Part shown: piece after piece, positions 19,785-26,431 of the stretch | How the letters are laid out: each line of letters starts with the position of its first letter | How positions within the stretch are numbered: position 1 is the stretch's first letter | Assembly (NCBI GenBank): GCA_025056215.1 | Contig: JANWWC010000001.1 | Span: 806,001-870,000 of the forward strand | Source of the DNA: Cytophagales bacterium | GTDB lineage: Bacteria > Bacteroidota > Bacteroidia > Cytophagales > Flammeovirgaceae | Length of the DNA: 64,000 nucleotides | Direction of reading: 5' to 3' | Notes under the pieces: model-generated | The model's database searches: none | What the model was told of the DNA's origin: nothing | Seen by the model: the letters and a program-made list of their open reading frames with translations, nothing else | Position numbers and translations under genes: made by a program

Positions 19785-20561
19785 TCAAAATTCCTTAGAA
19801 AGGCTAGCACTATCTGTTGAAGGTTGTACATCAAAACTTACTTGAACTCTTTCAATCATTGGAACTACTGTAGGAAATTCTGGTAACGTTACAGATAAAA
19901 AATCTAAGTAGGGACGCTGAATATCTTTCTCCTCCAATTCTAAATACAGAATATTCGGAACTTCTGCTAAAATACTTTTTGCACCCTCTATCACTACCGT
20001 ATCGGGCACGATTCGCACTTCTGATGCTAAATAATACCCTTCTGCTATATCAATTTTTTGAGTATCTACCTGAAGACGAATCGTTTTTCGAACTAATGAA
20101 TCGTAGGCAATCCGAATTGTATCTGTAACTAAAAAATGAACTTTGAACTCTGGCAACGATTCTACAAAAATAGGCATTAAATCATCTTTTGTGAGATAGC
20201 GCACCTGTAAAGGATTCTCAATTTTGATTTCCAGAATTCTCTGATGCAAAGACCACAAATAACGCATCAAAATCCAACCTGTAGCACTTACATTTGCTTT
20301 GATATAAGCAGGAAAAACAGAGAGTTGCGTATAATTGCCAGAAGTACTAAAATGAACAGGAACTTTTATCGTAGTTTGATGAATTTTGTTCAAAGAACGA
20401 AATAACCAGAAAATGCATGCAGTCAGAAAACAAATACTAATCACGCGCCATTCGCTATTCCAAAAACGATAAAATAAAAATCTAATAAATCTCCAAACTT
20501 TAATAGACCCAACATATGCATATCTTAATTTTGCTGATATTCTTATTTGCCGTTCCTTCAT
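19785..20561 (-). CDS. YbbR-like domain protein, membrane-anchored
   Basis: 258 residues. A basic N-terminus is followed by one transmembrane helix (about 38-54, VISICFLTACIFWLF). Then come extracytoplasmic beta-rich repeats of the YbbR type: a KVPVHFSTSG strand, VSATGWILMRY, and further repeats at about 145-245 ending PTVVPMIERVQVSFDV. YbbR/CdaR proteins regulate c-di-AMP cyclase in Firmicutes, but in Bacteroidota the role is not established. The only ATG (20561) makes this gene overlap the start of the divergent gene at 20516 by 46 bp; no alternative ATG, GTG or TTG is present between 20561 and the membrane helix. It lies 57 bp upstream of sufE on the same strand. Confidence 0.75.
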   Translation of the reverse strand: MKERQIRISAKLRYAYVGSIKVWRFIRFLFYRFWNSEWRVISICFLTACIFWLFRSLNKIHQTTIKVPVHFSTSGNYTQLSVFPAYIKANVSATGWILMRYLWSLHQRILEIKIENPLQVRYLTKDDLMPIFVESLPEFKVHFLVTDTIRIAYDSLVRKTIRLQVDTQKIDIAEGYYLASEVRIVPDTVVIEGAKSILAEVPNILYLELEEKDIQRPYLDFLSVTLPEFPTVVPMIERVQVSFDVQPSTDSASLSKEF

Positions 20562-21634
20562 GGGCTCAACTCGACAACCGTTTTTTTGACGATACTATCC
20601 CTACTCACAAAACTACACAAGAGCAACTACATCTTACGATAGATCTGCTCCCTTTTCATAAAAATAATGAATACTTTAATCCGATTGTAGAAGGAAGAAC
20701 ATTTTTCGGTTATCAAGCTTTCCCTAAGCTAATTTGGTATACTTCCCAAAACGTCATCTTAGAGGTAGGAGGATTCTTACAAAAAGACTTCGGAAATCCA
20801 CAATGGAGAACTATCGAGCCTTTCATGCGGTTTTCTTACCGAAAAAACAACTTTCAATTTATCTTCGGAAATTTAGAAGGCGCTTTAACTCATAGACTCA
20901 TAGAACCTCTTTTCAACTTCGAAAGATTGTTCTCTCACCGAACAGAACAAGGTTTGCAATTAAAATGGAACTCTTCTCGTCTTTTTTTAGATACTTGGAT
21001 TGACTGGGAAAAAATGATTTATCCTAACGTTACATTTCAAGAGGAATTCGTCAGTGGCGTAAATGCAGCGCTTGCATTGCTAAACACACCCACTTTAAAA
21101 ATCTCTTCAATTTTACAAGCTATTAACTTTCATCAGGGAGGACAAATCAATCTTCCTGCTCCTCCCGATACTACTACTCCCCCTGCTCGCAATGCTCTCA
21201 ACGCATCTTTAGGCATAGAAAGCTCTTTCATAGATTCTACTGCTTTGTTCTCTCATATTAGATGGAGTCTTTTTAAAGTGCTTTCCGCTCATACTCAAAA
21301 AACTCGCGGCAAGGGTTGGTACGCTACACTCTTACTTTCTACGCGCTTTGGAACTTGGGGTGCAAGCTATTGGAAAGGAATGCACTACGCTACAACCTTG
21401 GGTGGCGAACTTTTTTCTTCTTATTCTTTTGTTCCTGAAAATTTTCTCTATTACGCACCTATCCGAGAAATTGTAATCGTTCGATACATCTTGCCTTTCA
21501 AATTCAATGAAAATGCTTGCTTGCAAGTGCGCACCGAACCTTATTACGACATTTTACAAAAAAAAGCAGAAATTAGCTGGGGAATCTATGTAAGGTTTTT
21601 TATCAACCAGAAACTTTATCAAAAAGTCTTATAA
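20516..21634 (+). CDS. Exported protein of unknown function, possible outer-membrane barrel
   Basis: 372 residues with a clear signal peptide (MHILILLIFLFAVPSWAQ), which fixes the start at 20516 even though this lies inside the 5' end of the divergent YbbR gene. The mature protein is rich in aromatic residues and alternating strands (for example FMRFSYRKNNFQFIFGNLEG and RLFLDTWIDWEKMI) and ends with a strand-like segment near WGIYVRFFINQKLY, as in outer-membrane beta-barrels. No family is recognised. Its 3' end overlaps the convergent EVE-domain gene by 6 bp. Localisation is inferred from composition, not from a known domain. Confidence 0.65.
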   Translation: MHILILLIFLFAVPSWAQLDNRFFDDTIPTHKTTQEQLHLTIDLLPFHKNNEYFNPIVEGRTFFGYQAFPKLIWYTSQNVILEVGGFLQKDFGNPQWRTIEPFMRFSYRKNNFQFIFGNLEGALTHRLIEPLFNFERLFSHRTEQGLQLKWNSSRLFLDTWIDWEKMIYPNVTFQEEFVSGVNAALALLNTPTLKISSILQAINFHQGGQINLPAPPDTTTPPARNALNASLGIESSFIDSTALFSHIRWSLFKVLSAHTQKTRGKGWYATLLLSTRFGTWGASYWKGMHYATTLGGELFSSYSFVPENFLYYAPIREIVIVRYILPFKFNENACLQVRTEPYYDILQKKAEISWGIYVRFFINQKLYQKVL

Positions 21635-22063: not shown

Positions 22064-22864
22064 AAACACATACCTTCTAAAATCAGATGAATTATCTAAA
22101 CACTCAGAAATATTTTCACATTTAAGCTTCGAAAATATAAATCCACATGCTAATTTTATTAAGTTGTTCAGAACTTTAAATTTCAAAACGGTGAAACAGA
22201 AAGAAAGCGGCAACATTCAAGGATAAAACAAGCCGAAATCTCATCGCGTATTTTATTTGCAACGCTCAACACAAACGCAATCAGCTATTTTAAACTGAAT
22301 CTCAAGGAATCTCCTACAAAGCTGAAAGATAGACTAGCAATTGAAATTAAAGGATTTAGTCCGAAAGTCACAGAGAAAAGCAGGCTATGAGAAATTTACT
22401 TTAAGAAAAATGATTTCAGTTTTTGCAAACACATTTAAAGTGAAGGCAACGCTAACAGATTGACGCAATAAAAAATATTTAAACTAATGCATACAATATA
22501 CTCCAAACTCTGTTCTGAACAACCATCTTTATAATTCCTAATTTTTCGAACATAATCGAACTTCAATTTTACGAAATATTTTCTACTTGCTCTTACCTTT
22601 ACCAGTTCGAAAAATTACCATCCGATGGAAAAAATTATGCGCCTAAAATATCTTTGCGCACAATTCGATACAGAGATTCTCAACATCATGAGATTGCTGT
22701 TTTTTGAGGTTCAGTACCTGAGAAAATAAGTAAAAACAATCTGCGATATGTTTATTTTTACTTCTTCAGTATAAAAGGATTCAAAAAAATCTACTCCTCT
22801 TTGCTTGAGAGAAGATGTAGAATTTTTTGAAAATCGAGATTAGAACATTCATATTAGCAGTTGA
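22064..22864. other. Gene-poor, apparently decayed region of about 800 bp
   Basis: No intact gene. In the plus frame near 22163-22393 there is a 75-codon open stretch with no ATG and no recognised family, and stops are frequent in all frames elsewhere. No direct repeats with regular spacing (CRISPR), no tRNA and no terminal inverted repeats of an insertion sequence were seen. Given the cas6-like remnant immediately downstream, the region may be eroded accessory DNA. Confidence 0.5.
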
Positions 22865-23158
22865 ATGATTGAAATAAAAATCGCAACACTTGAAATGAGG
22901 CAATATATATTCAACAGTTGGGATAAAAATAAAGCTAGCAACTGGATTGCTCTCAATCAAGATAATAAAGAGTACCAAAAGCTCGGAAGATCAGCCGAAC
23001 AAATTCAGTTCCTCGAAAAGAAACTCATAGAAAATATCCTAAATTTTGCAAAAGGTTTAAACTGGAATGTAGAAAAAAACATCAATTGTATTATTGCAAA
23101 AACAAAGAACGTTAGCCTAGGACATGGCTTAGTAAAATACTACAAAAAACTCTCATAG
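22865..23158 (+). pseudogene. Possible remnant of a Cas6b-type CRISPR RNA endonuclease (C-terminal part)
   Basis: A 97-codon ORF. Its middle (WIALNQDNKEYQKLG, then QFLEKKLIENILNFAKGLNW) resembles, from memory, the C-terminal domain of Bacteroidota Cas6b proteins. There, a W-I-A-L-N-Q-E/D-N phrase is followed by a LEK-L-I-G-N-I-L-S-F-A-K-G phrase. The last residues, NVSLGHGLVKYYKK, resemble the terminal glycine-rich VSLGFG loop of that family. About 50-60 residues that normally lie between these blocks appear to be missing at the TKN junction, and a TGA stands just before the ATG, so the catalytic N-terminal half is absent. No cas genes or arrays are nearby. A small unrelated protein is the alternative. 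Confidence 0.45.
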
Positions 23159-23179
23159 TAAAATTATTTTTATTGTAAT

Positions 23180-26100
23180 ATGAGATTTGTCTGCTTATTG
23201 TATTTGTTTGCGTGGAGTTATCAGTCGATTGCACAAAGTTACAATCCGAATTCGCCTCCTAATACTTATCGAAGCAAGCATAATCCTTATTACTGGAAAA
23301 ATCGACCTGAAGCGCGCGGTACGTGGCAGCAAGATGTTTATTACCAGATTCATGCCACCATTGACGACAGCGCTAATATTATCGAAGGTACTTTTTACCA
23401 ACTCACGTATTGGAATAATTCTCCTTTCAACCTTTATGAACTTTATTTTCATTTGTACGAAAATGCTTTTCAGCCGGGGTCTCATTACCATGCCCTTTGG
23501 GAAGGAAACCGCCGTACTCCTATTTTTGGCAAACAATACGAAAGCAAAGGACTTGGTATCGTCGTACAAAATGTTCGCGTCAACGGGTTAGAAGTAGATA
23601 CAGCCATTGATAATACTATCATGCAAGTAAAACTTAAAGAACCCTTAAAATCGGGAGATTCTTGCGTGATCACAATGCAATTCCGCACTTATTACGATGC
23701 AGGAAGCATGAGAAGGCGTAACAAAATGTTTGAAAGCTATGGATACAAGCATTTTAATGGCTGTCATTGGTATCCTATTATTGCTGTTTATGATGCCAAG
23801 CTCTCTTGGAATACCGACCAGCACTTAGACAAAGAATTTTACGCTAACTTCGGCACGTTCGATGTAACTCTTACCTTTCCACAAGAGTACATCGTAGAAG
23901 CTACAGGTACGTTGCTCAACAAGGAGGAAGTACTGCCAGATACGCTATTAGAAAAGTTAAACATCGAAAACTTTAAGGAAAAACCATGGGGATCTCCTCC
24001 TTCTGTTATTATTCCCAAAGAAAAAGGCAAGATGAAATCATGGCGTTTTTACGCAGAAAATGTTCATAACTTTGCTTTCACTGCCTCGCCTATTTATCGA
24101 ATTGGACGCACCACGTGGCGAAACATAGAAGTTATTTGTGTAGTACAAGAACCTCATGCAAGCCGATGGCAACAGACTCCTTACTATACTGCTGCCCTTA
24201 TCAAGCTATATTCAGAAGATTTTGGTATGTATGCATATCCTAAAATAGTAGTAGCCGATGCGCAAGACGGCATGGAATATCCTATGTTAGTGCTTTGTGG
24301 CGGTCAGTTCCCTTCTCACGCTCCTTTAATTGCCCATGAAGTAGGACATAACTGGTTTTATGGAATGGTAGCGAACAACGAACAATATCGCGCTGCACTC
24401 GATGAGGGACTTACGCAATTCATGACCGTCTGGGCATTAGAACGATTTTTTGGAGAAATTCAATACCCTCAGACCAACAGCAAGTACATCAACCGCTTTA
24501 GAAACCCTTATCGTCATCGCTACTTTCGGCTCTATTACGGATATATCGGAGCAGTCTACGACGGATTTGACTATCCTCTCAATACGCATTCCGCTGACTT
24601 TCGAGGAGCTATTCGGCAAGATGGAGGGTATGGACTTGTTTATTTCAAGTTTGGAACAATGCTTTATAACTTACAATACGTTTTAGGAGAAGAGCTTTTC
24701 TTGCGCGCCATTCGCTATTATTTCGAAAAATGGAAATTCAGACATCCCTATTTTGAAGACTTTCGCCAATCTATTATCGAATACACACAAACAGACCTTA
24801 ATTGGTTTTTTGACCAATGGCTCGAAACCACTAAAATCTGCGATTATTCAATTGAACGCGTAAGAAAACTTAAAAATGATAGTATTCCTTTTCAATACGC
24901 TATTACTTTTAAAAGAAAAGGAGAAATGCAAATGCCTTTGGATGTCAGAATAACAACACGAAGCGGCCTGAAATACAATTACTACATTCCCAACACTTCG
25001 TGGTTCAACAAACAAACGACCGCTTTAAGACTCCCCCCTTGGATTGGTTGGGGAAAAATTCGACCTAAGTATACTGCAGTCGTTTCTTTACCAGAACCGA
25101 TTCAAAACGTTCAAATCGATACCAGCTATCGCTTAGCAGATATAGACCTTACGAATAATAAATGGAAAGGAAACTATCGATTTAAATTTGACAGTCGCGT
25201 TCCTAACGCTCCTGATTGGTATGAATACTCTAACAAGATAAGACCTGATATTTGGTATAATCAATTCGACGGATTCCAAATTGGTCTTCACGCTGAAGGC
25301 GATTATATGAAACAGGATAAAATCTATCGAGCAGATTTGTGGTACAATACGGGCTGGCCACAACAAAATATCCCTGATGAACAAAAGCGACACTTTCATC
25401 CTATAAGTGTTTATTTTAATTATAAAAAACGCATTCTAAGGCGATACCCTACAATGTTTTTTAATAGGCAAACGATGTGGAATGCAGGACTTATCAAGGT
25501 GAGAACGGGCATTGAAAAATTGTTTCAACAACAAGATGCTAAAAATCCGAATACTACTACTGTCAGTTGGCATGCGCAATATATGCGAAGAAATACAGAA
25601 ACGGATAAGAATTACCTATTATATCCTTCTTTGTGGACTATCAGCAGCAATCATTTCTTTCAAGAATGGAGCATAAAGCAAACATACGCTTTCCAAGAAT
25701 GGGAAGGAAAAACGATTTTAAAGTTTCGCACCCCTTTTATTATGTCGAGCTTCAACTATTCATTTATAGAGCTTGAAAGCCAAAACAATAAAGAAATCGG
25801 GAAGTTTCGTTTGCGAACTCGCTTTGTTGGAAGAAGCGGTTTTGGAGATACTCCTATCGAATCCGCTTGGTATATGGGAGGCGCAAACCCAGAACAACTC
25901 ATCGAGAACCGCTTTACACGTGCGGGAGGTTTTATTCCGACTCAATGGCTCAATCCGATCACCTCTTCTAAAAATCCTATTGCCTTTCAGATGGGTGGAG
26001 GTTCTAACGTACGTGGTATGGCTTTGTACCCATTCGCTGCTAATCCTGAAGGCTCTTTTAAAAATTATATCAGCAACTCTGGCATAGGACTATCAGCAGA

Positions 26101-26431
26101 GTTAGATTTCGATAAATACTTTGAATGGAAACCCAAGCTATTTTCTAAGTTTTTGCGAATTCAGCCATATGTATTCGCCGATGCTGGTATTATGCCTCTG
26201 GAGCAAAAGTCATTTTCGCTTACTACCATTTCTCGTTTATTTTCAGGACAATGGCACAAGGCTGCTGATGCAGGAATAGGCAGTATTCTTTACTTCAAAT
26301 TTGGCGATACACTCGAAATCGAACCTCTTCAAATCCGCATTGATATGCCTTTGTGGCTCTACCCTTCTGTAGGTCGGATGTTAGCTCCTCGATGGATCAT
26401 TGGAATAGGAAAAAGTTTTGAAATTCGTTAA
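23180..26431 (+). CDS. M1-family metallopeptidase with C-terminal Omp85-like barrel region
   Basis: 1083 residues with a signal peptide (1-19, ending SIAQ). An M1 aminopeptidase-type N-terminal beta domain and a thermolysin-like catalytic domain span about 40-560. The zinc motif is H386-E-V-G-H390 with third ligand Glu409, exactly 18 residues after the second His; the upstream substrate loop is DGMEYPMLVLCGG. After a linker (about 560-680), residues about 690-1083 look like an outer-membrane barrel. They contain WYNQFDGFQIGLHAEG, alternating aromatic strands, GGGSNVRGMALYPF at about 940-953 (compare the VRGY/F motif of the Omp85/FhaC L6 loop) and a final strand ending GIGKSFEIR. The peptidase assignment is firm; the barrel is inferred. 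It would place the peptidase on the outer membrane. Confidence 0.88.
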   Translation: MRFVCLLYLFAWSYQSIAQSYNPNSPPNTYRSKHNPYYWKNRPEARGTWQQDVYYQIHATIDDSANIIEGTFYQLTYWNNSPFNLYELYFHLYENAFQPGSHYHALWEGNRRTPIFGKQYESKGLGIVVQNVRVNGLEVDTAIDNTIMQVKLKEPLKSGDSCVITMQFRTYYDAGSMRRRNKMFESYGYKHFNGCHWYPIIAVYDAKLSWNTDQHLDKEFYANFGTFDVTLTFPQEYIVEATGTLLNKEEVLPDTLLEKLNIENFKEKPWGSPPSVIIPKEKGKMKSWRFYAENVHNFAFTASPIYRIGRTTWRNIEVICVVQEPHASRWQQTPYYTAALIKLYSEDFGMYAYPKIVVADAQDGMEYPMLVLCGGQFPSHAPLIAHEVGHNWFYGMVANNEQYRAALDEGLTQFMTVWALERFFGEIQYPQTNSKYINRFRNPYRHRYFRLYYGYIGAVYDGFDYPLNTHSADFRGAIRQDGGYGLVYFKFGTMLYNLQYVLGEELFLRAIRYYFEKWKFRHPYFEDFRQSIIEYTQTDLNWFFDQWLETTKICDYSIERVRKLKNDSIPFQYAITFKRKGEMQMPLDVRITTRSGLKYNYYIPNTSWFNKQTTALRLPPWIGWGKIRPKYTAVVSLPEPIQNVQIDTSYRLADIDLTNNKWKGNYRFKFDSRVPNAPDWYEYSNKIRPDIWYNQFDGFQIGLHAEGDYMKQDKIYRADLWYNTGWPQQNIPDEQKRHFHPISVYFNYKKRILRRYPTMFFNRQTMWNAGLIKVRTGIEKLFQQQDAKNPNTTTVSWHAQYMRRNTETDKNYLLYPSLWTISSNHFFQEWSIKQTYAFQEWEGKTILKFRTPFIMSSFNYSFIELESQNNKEIGKFRLRTRFVGRSGFGDTPIESAWYMGGANPEQLIENRFTRAGGFIPTQWLNPITSSKNPIAFQMGGGSNVRGMALYPFAANPEGSFKNYISNSGIGLSAELDFDKYFEWKPKLFSKFLRIQPYVFADAGIMPLEQKSFSLTTISRLFSGQWHKAADAGIGSILYFKFGDTLEIEPLQIRIDMPLWLYPSVGRMLAPRWIIGIGKSFEIR

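Follow-up and report, generated by a model that had tools for sequence, protein, structure and literature searches.

A predicted fusion of an M1 zinc peptidase with a 16-stranded Omp85-type barrel in Bacteroidota

An uninterrupted reading frame at 23180–26431 (+) of the window (the whole 64,000-nucleotide stretch of Cytophagales DNA that was analysed) runs from ATG to stop and encodes a 1083-residue protein in which a signal peptide, a three-domain M1 zinc peptidase (residues 48–646), a linker, and a 16-stranded barrel (residues 683–1080) follow one another. We hold this architecture of M1 peptidase plus Omp85-type barrel with high confidence, and it is well supported; the fusion, the M1 fold with its intact active site, the Omp85 type of the barrel, and wide conservation are supported by sequence and models. 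The coordinates and length that an earlier note had given for the frame were exact. The protein as a whole is best explained, with moderate confidence, as an outer-membrane-anchored zinc peptidase that faces the periplasm; its orientation, aminopeptidase activity, and substrate class are what we infer. The features are listed below; 57/57 refers to the alignment of 57 relatives from which all residue conservation was counted, and AF2 to AlphaFold2.

23180–26431 (+): whole gene, M1 peptidase–Omp85-type barrel fusion, 1083 residues (reading frame)
23180–23233 (+): predicted Sec signal peptide, residues 1–18 (sequence; helix 2–16 in the AF2 model)
23321–25117 (+): M1 peptidase module, domains I–III, residues 48–646 (Pfam PF01433; Foldseek to IRAP, ERAP, and PepN)
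24269–24280 (+): GMEY, residues 364–367, variant of the M1 exopeptidase motif GxMEN with Glu366 kept (G364, E366, and Y367 in 57/57)
24335–24349 (+): HEVGH zinc-binding motif, residues 386–390 (H386, E387, and H390 in 57/57)
24404–24406 (+): E409, third zinc ligand, at x18 spacing after HEVGH (57/57)
24641–24643 (+): Y488, probable transition-state tyrosine (57/57)
25118–25225 (+): linker, residues 647–682, 36 residues (AF2 secondary structure; no Pfam match)
25226–26419 (+): 16-stranded Omp85-type barrel, residues 683–1080 (AF2; Foldseek to BamA, TamA, and Sam50; hhalign)
25847–26080 (+): extracellular loop L6, residues 890–967, 78 residues, between strands 11 and 12 (mean conservation 0.62, against 0.55 for strands)
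25994–26020 (+): GGGSNVRGM, residues 939–947, L6 motif of the (V/I)RG(Y/F) type (G940, G941, R945, and G946 invariant)
26174–26188 (+): FADAG, residues 999–1003, strand 13 FxDxG lid-lock partner of the BamA/TamA type (F999 and D1001 invariant, G1003 at least 90%)
26393–26419 (+): last strand, with an end resembling a BAM-type β-signal; family consensus FRWVxGINRAF (sequence and consensus)

The signal peptide is probably cleaved between A18 and Q19, the latter being nearly invariant among the aligned relatives; no lipobox cysteine was seen in it on inspection of the sequence. The linker is, by AF2 secondary structure, too short for a POTRA domain or for M1 domain IV, and neither Pfam nor AF2 revealed a POTRA in the 36 residues between M1 and barrel or elsewhere in the protein. 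The full-length AF2 model has a pLDDT of 87.4 and a pTM of 0.85; the pTM of the full chain by itself suggests that the two modules may be held in a fixed arrangement.

The sole Pfam match of the protein is to PF01433 (Peptidase_M1), at residues 381–547 (E = 1.1e-12; 48.4 bits against a cut-off of 27.7), and a Foldseek search with the full-length model matched the M1 part to IRAP, ERAP, and PepN (best E = 7e-22). Nine residues, H386, E387, H390, E409, Y488, K490, G364, E366, and Y367, do not vary across the 57 aligned sequences, a pattern that implies selection for activity. The HExxH-x18-E signature and the catalytic tyrosine are thus both present, as had been claimed for HEVGH and the exact spacing of Glu409; we take Y488 to be the equivalent of PepN Tyr381. 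The module shares its fold, zinc signature, and catalytic tyrosine with the M1 aminopeptidases PepN, ERAP1, IRAP, and LTA4H, and departs from them at two points. First, the GxMEN exopeptidase motif reads GMEYP here, and GMEY was found in all Bacteroidota M1 relatives examined. Second, the domain III sandwich is the last part of the module, ending near residue 646, and in the AF2 model barrel strands follow domain III with no helical repeat between them, so that a membrane barrel stands where many, but not all, M1 enzymes carry the C-terminal helical domain IV. Membership in the M1 family rests on the zinc site and the fold, both of which are found. The altered GxMEN weakens only the claim of a typical aminopeptidase, whose specificity is not certain. 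The earlier description of a "standard M1 peptidase" therefore holds for M1 identity and fails for "standard", given the motif change and the missing domain IV, while its statement that the last ~400 residues are unlike an M1 C-terminal domain agrees with the lack of any such match.

AF2 predicted 16 strands in both the full-length and the barrel-only model: residues 683–694, 698–709, 713–723, 742–753, 756–768, 771–782, 792–803, and 825–838 (strands 1–8); 841–852, 860–873, 876–889, 968–976, 992–1006, 1025–1039, and 1050–1061 (strands 9–15); and, for strand 16, 1072–1076 in the model, extended to 1080 for calculations. The barrel-like alternation noticed in the sequence was borne out. The mean absolute even–odd difference in hydrophobicity over the 16 predicted strands was 2.90, against 1.18 (sd 0.22) in within-strand shuffles, none of 2000 reaching the observed value. 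The segment WYNQFDGFQIG, proposed as the first strand, turned out to run from the end of strand 1 through loop 1 into the beginning of strand 2. When the predicted barrel was compared with the PDB by Foldseek, the best 50 matches were all to Omp85 proteins (BamA, TamA, and Sam50, including F. johnsoniae BamA), with E down to 4.5e-9 at ~9–14% identity; the query-normalised TM-scores of 0.34–0.50 are modest, as befits a match to distant fold relatives.

An HMM match to PF01103, named in the earlier note as a sign of support, was found neither in the window protein nor among the 57 C-termini scanned. Pfam, NCBIfam, and the PDB sequences contained no match to residues 681–1083, and a profile of the C-terminal part built from 57 sequences likewise found none in the PDB. 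Scattered C-terminal matches in single relatives (Nanovirus_C8 and others) were judged to be due to chance. The more sensitive profile–profile comparison by hhalign, against an alignment of Bacteroidota Omp85 barrels collected from PF01103 hits, did make the link, with E = 2e-4 over the last strands and the RG and DAG motifs in register; the reversed profile gave E = 0.37, and ten column shuffles gave E = 0.19–0.74.

In Omp85 barrels, the tip of L6 carries a (V/I)RG(Y/F) motif that makes contact with (F/G)xDxG on strand 13, forming a lid lock; the strand 13 motif is FxDxG in TamA and BamA and GxDxG in FhaC, and strand 14 carries a conserved glycine (PMC4490367). All of these elements were found in the window protein. 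The GGGSNVRGM segment, previously read as an L6-type motif, does lie between predicted strands 11 and 12; the family consensus is GGGLNLRGY, and the window copy, VRGM, is one letter off the strict pattern. Strand 14 carries G1032 and G1034, both invariant, and the three lid-lock elements (RG, FxDxG, and the strand 14 glycine) are conserved across 57/57 relatives. Judged from sequence, the predicted lid lock is of the BamA/TamA type and not of the FhaC type. Alignments suggest that an insertion may separate the canonical end of strand 11 from the RG motif. The match of the lid lock in both position and residues is the strongest single argument for Omp85 homology. Together with the 16 strands and the Foldseek matches, these motifs uphold the Omp85 reading of the C-terminal part. 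A 16-stranded C-terminal barrel has been named as the defining feature of the Omp85 superfamily (PMC4104836) and is predicted here; the usual one or more POTRA domains are absent, and Omp85 subfamilies without POTRA have been published (PMC4104836).

A scan of GTDB genomes returned 272 candidate stretches encoding relatives; the best 80 of the 272 were mostly full length, 41–49% identical, and came from Cytophagales, Chitinophagales, Flavobacteriales, Sphingobacteriales, and Saprospirales. Taibaiella (relatives L087 and L088), which can be cultured, is among those with the fusion. For the window's order, profile searches located the barrel in 26 of 148 genomes, and for its class in 142 of 247 sampled genomes, nearly always in a single copy and mostly within an open frame of ~1050–1120 residues. 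Sampled relatives from the window's own family had unfused M1 relatives only and no barrel, so its presence is patchy. Elsewhere in the phylum there is another set of fusions, more divergent and mostly ~980–1080 residues long, whose barrel profile matched the window-family barrel at E = 9e-30 and Omp85 at E = 3e-5. The fusion is old and common in Bacteroidota. In an M1 tree, made by a quick method and containing long branches, the window's clade formed one group with a support of 100, and unfused enzymes of ~620 residues were nested among fused ones, a pattern that speaks for barrel loss rather than repeated gain. A plasmid search found unfused M1 relatives only, with no place covering 80% of the query. 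Two relatives labelled Azovibrio and Verrucomicrobia (L065 and L037, from MAGs) are most likely Bacteroidota contigs that were binned wrongly.

The barrel family also has standalone members (~400–440 residues, with LRGY and DAG), found in genomes whose unfused M1 relatives are located elsewhere. A short conserved gene, NUDIX hydrolase-like by eye, is adjacent to seven of seven standalone barrels (L155–L161), which often have acetate kinase-like and greA-like genes nearby; in one genome, two copies stand in tandem. The fused gene follows nadC and the gene for a BrkB-family membrane protein in 18 of the 66 loci with enough upstream flank, these being Flavobacteriales-type loci (including L040/L164, L041, L049, L081, L089, L102, and L112), an order that may represent an envelope-related operon. 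A barrel without M1 fills the nadC–BrkB slot in two genomes (L162:2017–3339 and L163:1872–3194, both on the minus strand), and a 606-residue protein encoded directly after nadC (L165:1103–2920, minus strand) joins the same barrel to an unrelated N-terminus of ~190 residues without a Pfam match. The standalone and barrel-only genes suggest that the barrel does something by itself, with M1 as an attached function.

The nadC–BrkB context is absent from the window, where, of 14 neighbouring genes, a single one had a match close to the relatives, and that at one locus. Directly upstream, a 97-residue frame (22865–23155, +) matches the Cas6b C-terminal domain (E = 1.7e-13) and looks like what is left of a CRISPR cas6 gene; a search at 22200–23200 turned up no direct repeats. 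A 372-residue protein at 20516–21634 (+), with a signal peptide, a beta-rich look, and no Pfam match, is possibly another outer-membrane barrel.

Strand 1 runs outward in Omp85 barrels, and in outer-membrane barrels the loops on the outer side are long and the turns on the inner side short. With strand 1 outward, the outer-side loops of the predicted barrel total 157 residues and the inner-side turns 43; both termini and the M1 domain should therefore be periplasmic. From these loop lengths, the lid lock, and the precedent of PlpD, an enzyme–Omp85 fusion whose enzyme domain was experimentally shown to stay in the periplasm (PMC11116518), the M1 domain likely lies on the periplasmic side and is probably not surface-exposed. 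The protein would first be exported by Sec and then inserted by BAM via its C-terminal barrel; the L6 lid lock would shut the barrel from outside, and the M1 module would rest on its periplasmic face, where BamA and TamA carry POTRA domains. The barrel would occupy the chain position that helical domain IV takes in many soluble M1 enzymes. At the inner face (inner leaflet) of the outer membrane, M1 would most likely trim or degrade peptides and the N-termini of proteins, a specific processing role that we propose only tentatively. The "unusual topology" suggested earlier thus stands as regards the tie to the outer membrane, and would be better described as an anchored peptidase facing the periplasm. 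Against this explanation, some lineages keep the barrel without M1, which points to a barrel role that needs no peptidase on the same chain.

That point feeds the main alternative, in which the barrel works actively as an insertase or chaperone-like Omp85, with the peptidase as a built-in quality-control or maturation enzyme for the OMPs or lipoproteins that the barrel handles. The FxDxG lid lock is of the insertase type (not the GxDxG of FhaC), the barrel occurs by itself and in some genomes even stands in the slot of the fusion, and the fused gene recurs after nadC and BrkB. However, there is no POTRA to receive substrates, the patchy occurrence within the order argues against an essential role, and other Omp85 proteins score over the Pfam cut-off in the window genome, as in all sampled genomes. 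We consider this alternative unlikely, and equally so its extension, a further Omp85 subfamily in which an insertase-type lid-lock barrel with its own zinc peptidase would form a one-protein outer-membrane maturation or quality-control machine of Bacteroidota.

A folded domain of ~600 residues would not pass a 16-strand barrel, which counts against type Vd-like secretion, that is, export of the M1 domain through the barrel to the cell surface. Such export was the original model for PlpD (PMC4104836), and a surface peptidase would suit protein-degrading Bacteroidota; yet the PlpD enzyme domain was later shown to be periplasmic (PMC11116518), the pore-closing lid-lock elements are kept, and the loop lengths put the N-terminus inside. 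Secretion is accordingly disfavoured as improbable. Convergence, with a 16-strand outer-membrane barrel unrelated to Omp85, draws on the missing PF01103 HMM match and the ~9–14% identity to structural matches; it is very improbable, as the lid-lock residues sit on the same strands and loop and are conserved in all aligned relatives, the in-register profile alignment rises above its controls, and the best 50 Foldseek matches are solely Omp85. An assembly or annotation artefact joining two genes, for which no supporting point was found, can in practice be dismissed, since the single-frame architecture recurs in most of the 142 positive class genomes and in many independent assemblies, a complete genome (L058) included.

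The periplasm-facing, anchored peptidase resembles several known systems in part. Like the patatin–Omp85 proteins PlpD and FplA (type Vd), it combines an N-terminal hydrolase and a C-terminal 16-strand Omp85 barrel in one polypeptide; unlike them, it has an M1 zinc peptidase instead of a patatin lipase, lacks a POTRA before the barrel, and belongs to Bacteroidota, so that the patatin-plus-POTRA arrangement of type Vd is absent. With the Omp85 "Metallo" subfamily (PMC4104836) it shares a metalloenzyme domain joined to an Omp85 barrel in a non-POTRA architecture, whereas the domain of that subfamily is PF00149 and not M1. PF00149 is Metallophos (name confirmed), a phosphoesterase family, though the subfamily it defines was called metalloprotease (PMC4104836), a label repeated later (PMC11116518). 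The "noNterm" subfamily (PMC4104836) has the architecture of the standalone relatives of the window barrel, while the window protein carries a 600-residue enzyme. BamA and TamA share the 16 strands, the L6 RG motif, FxDxG on strand 13, the strand 14 glycine, and, as predicted from the loop lengths, a periplasmic barrel N-terminus; in the window protein, a peptidase takes the place of their POTRA domains, and the barrels are ~9–14% identical. An M1 domain does not feature in the description of any of the ten Omp85 subfamilies listed by Heinz and Lithgow 2014 (PMC4104836), no description of an M1–Omp85 fusion was found in the open-access literature searched, and the word peptidase was absent from the Bacteroidota BAM paper checked for a peptidase subunit. 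The most fitting description of the window protein is a new Omp85-superfamily architecture.

Enzyme–Omp85 fusions are few, and those that we found to have been studied by experiment belong to the PlpD type. The wide spread of a fusion that is usually single-copy and has a fully conserved peptidase site suggests that Omp85 also came to serve as a scaffold for keeping a protease at the outer membrane. The fusion is missing from the published classification that we found, and its barrel is invisible to Pfam. It points to an unstudied outer-membrane enzyme and not to a one-off curiosity, and offers a testable entry to outer-membrane proteolysis in Bacteroidota, in which envelope biogenesis is being rewritten (PMC12611786).
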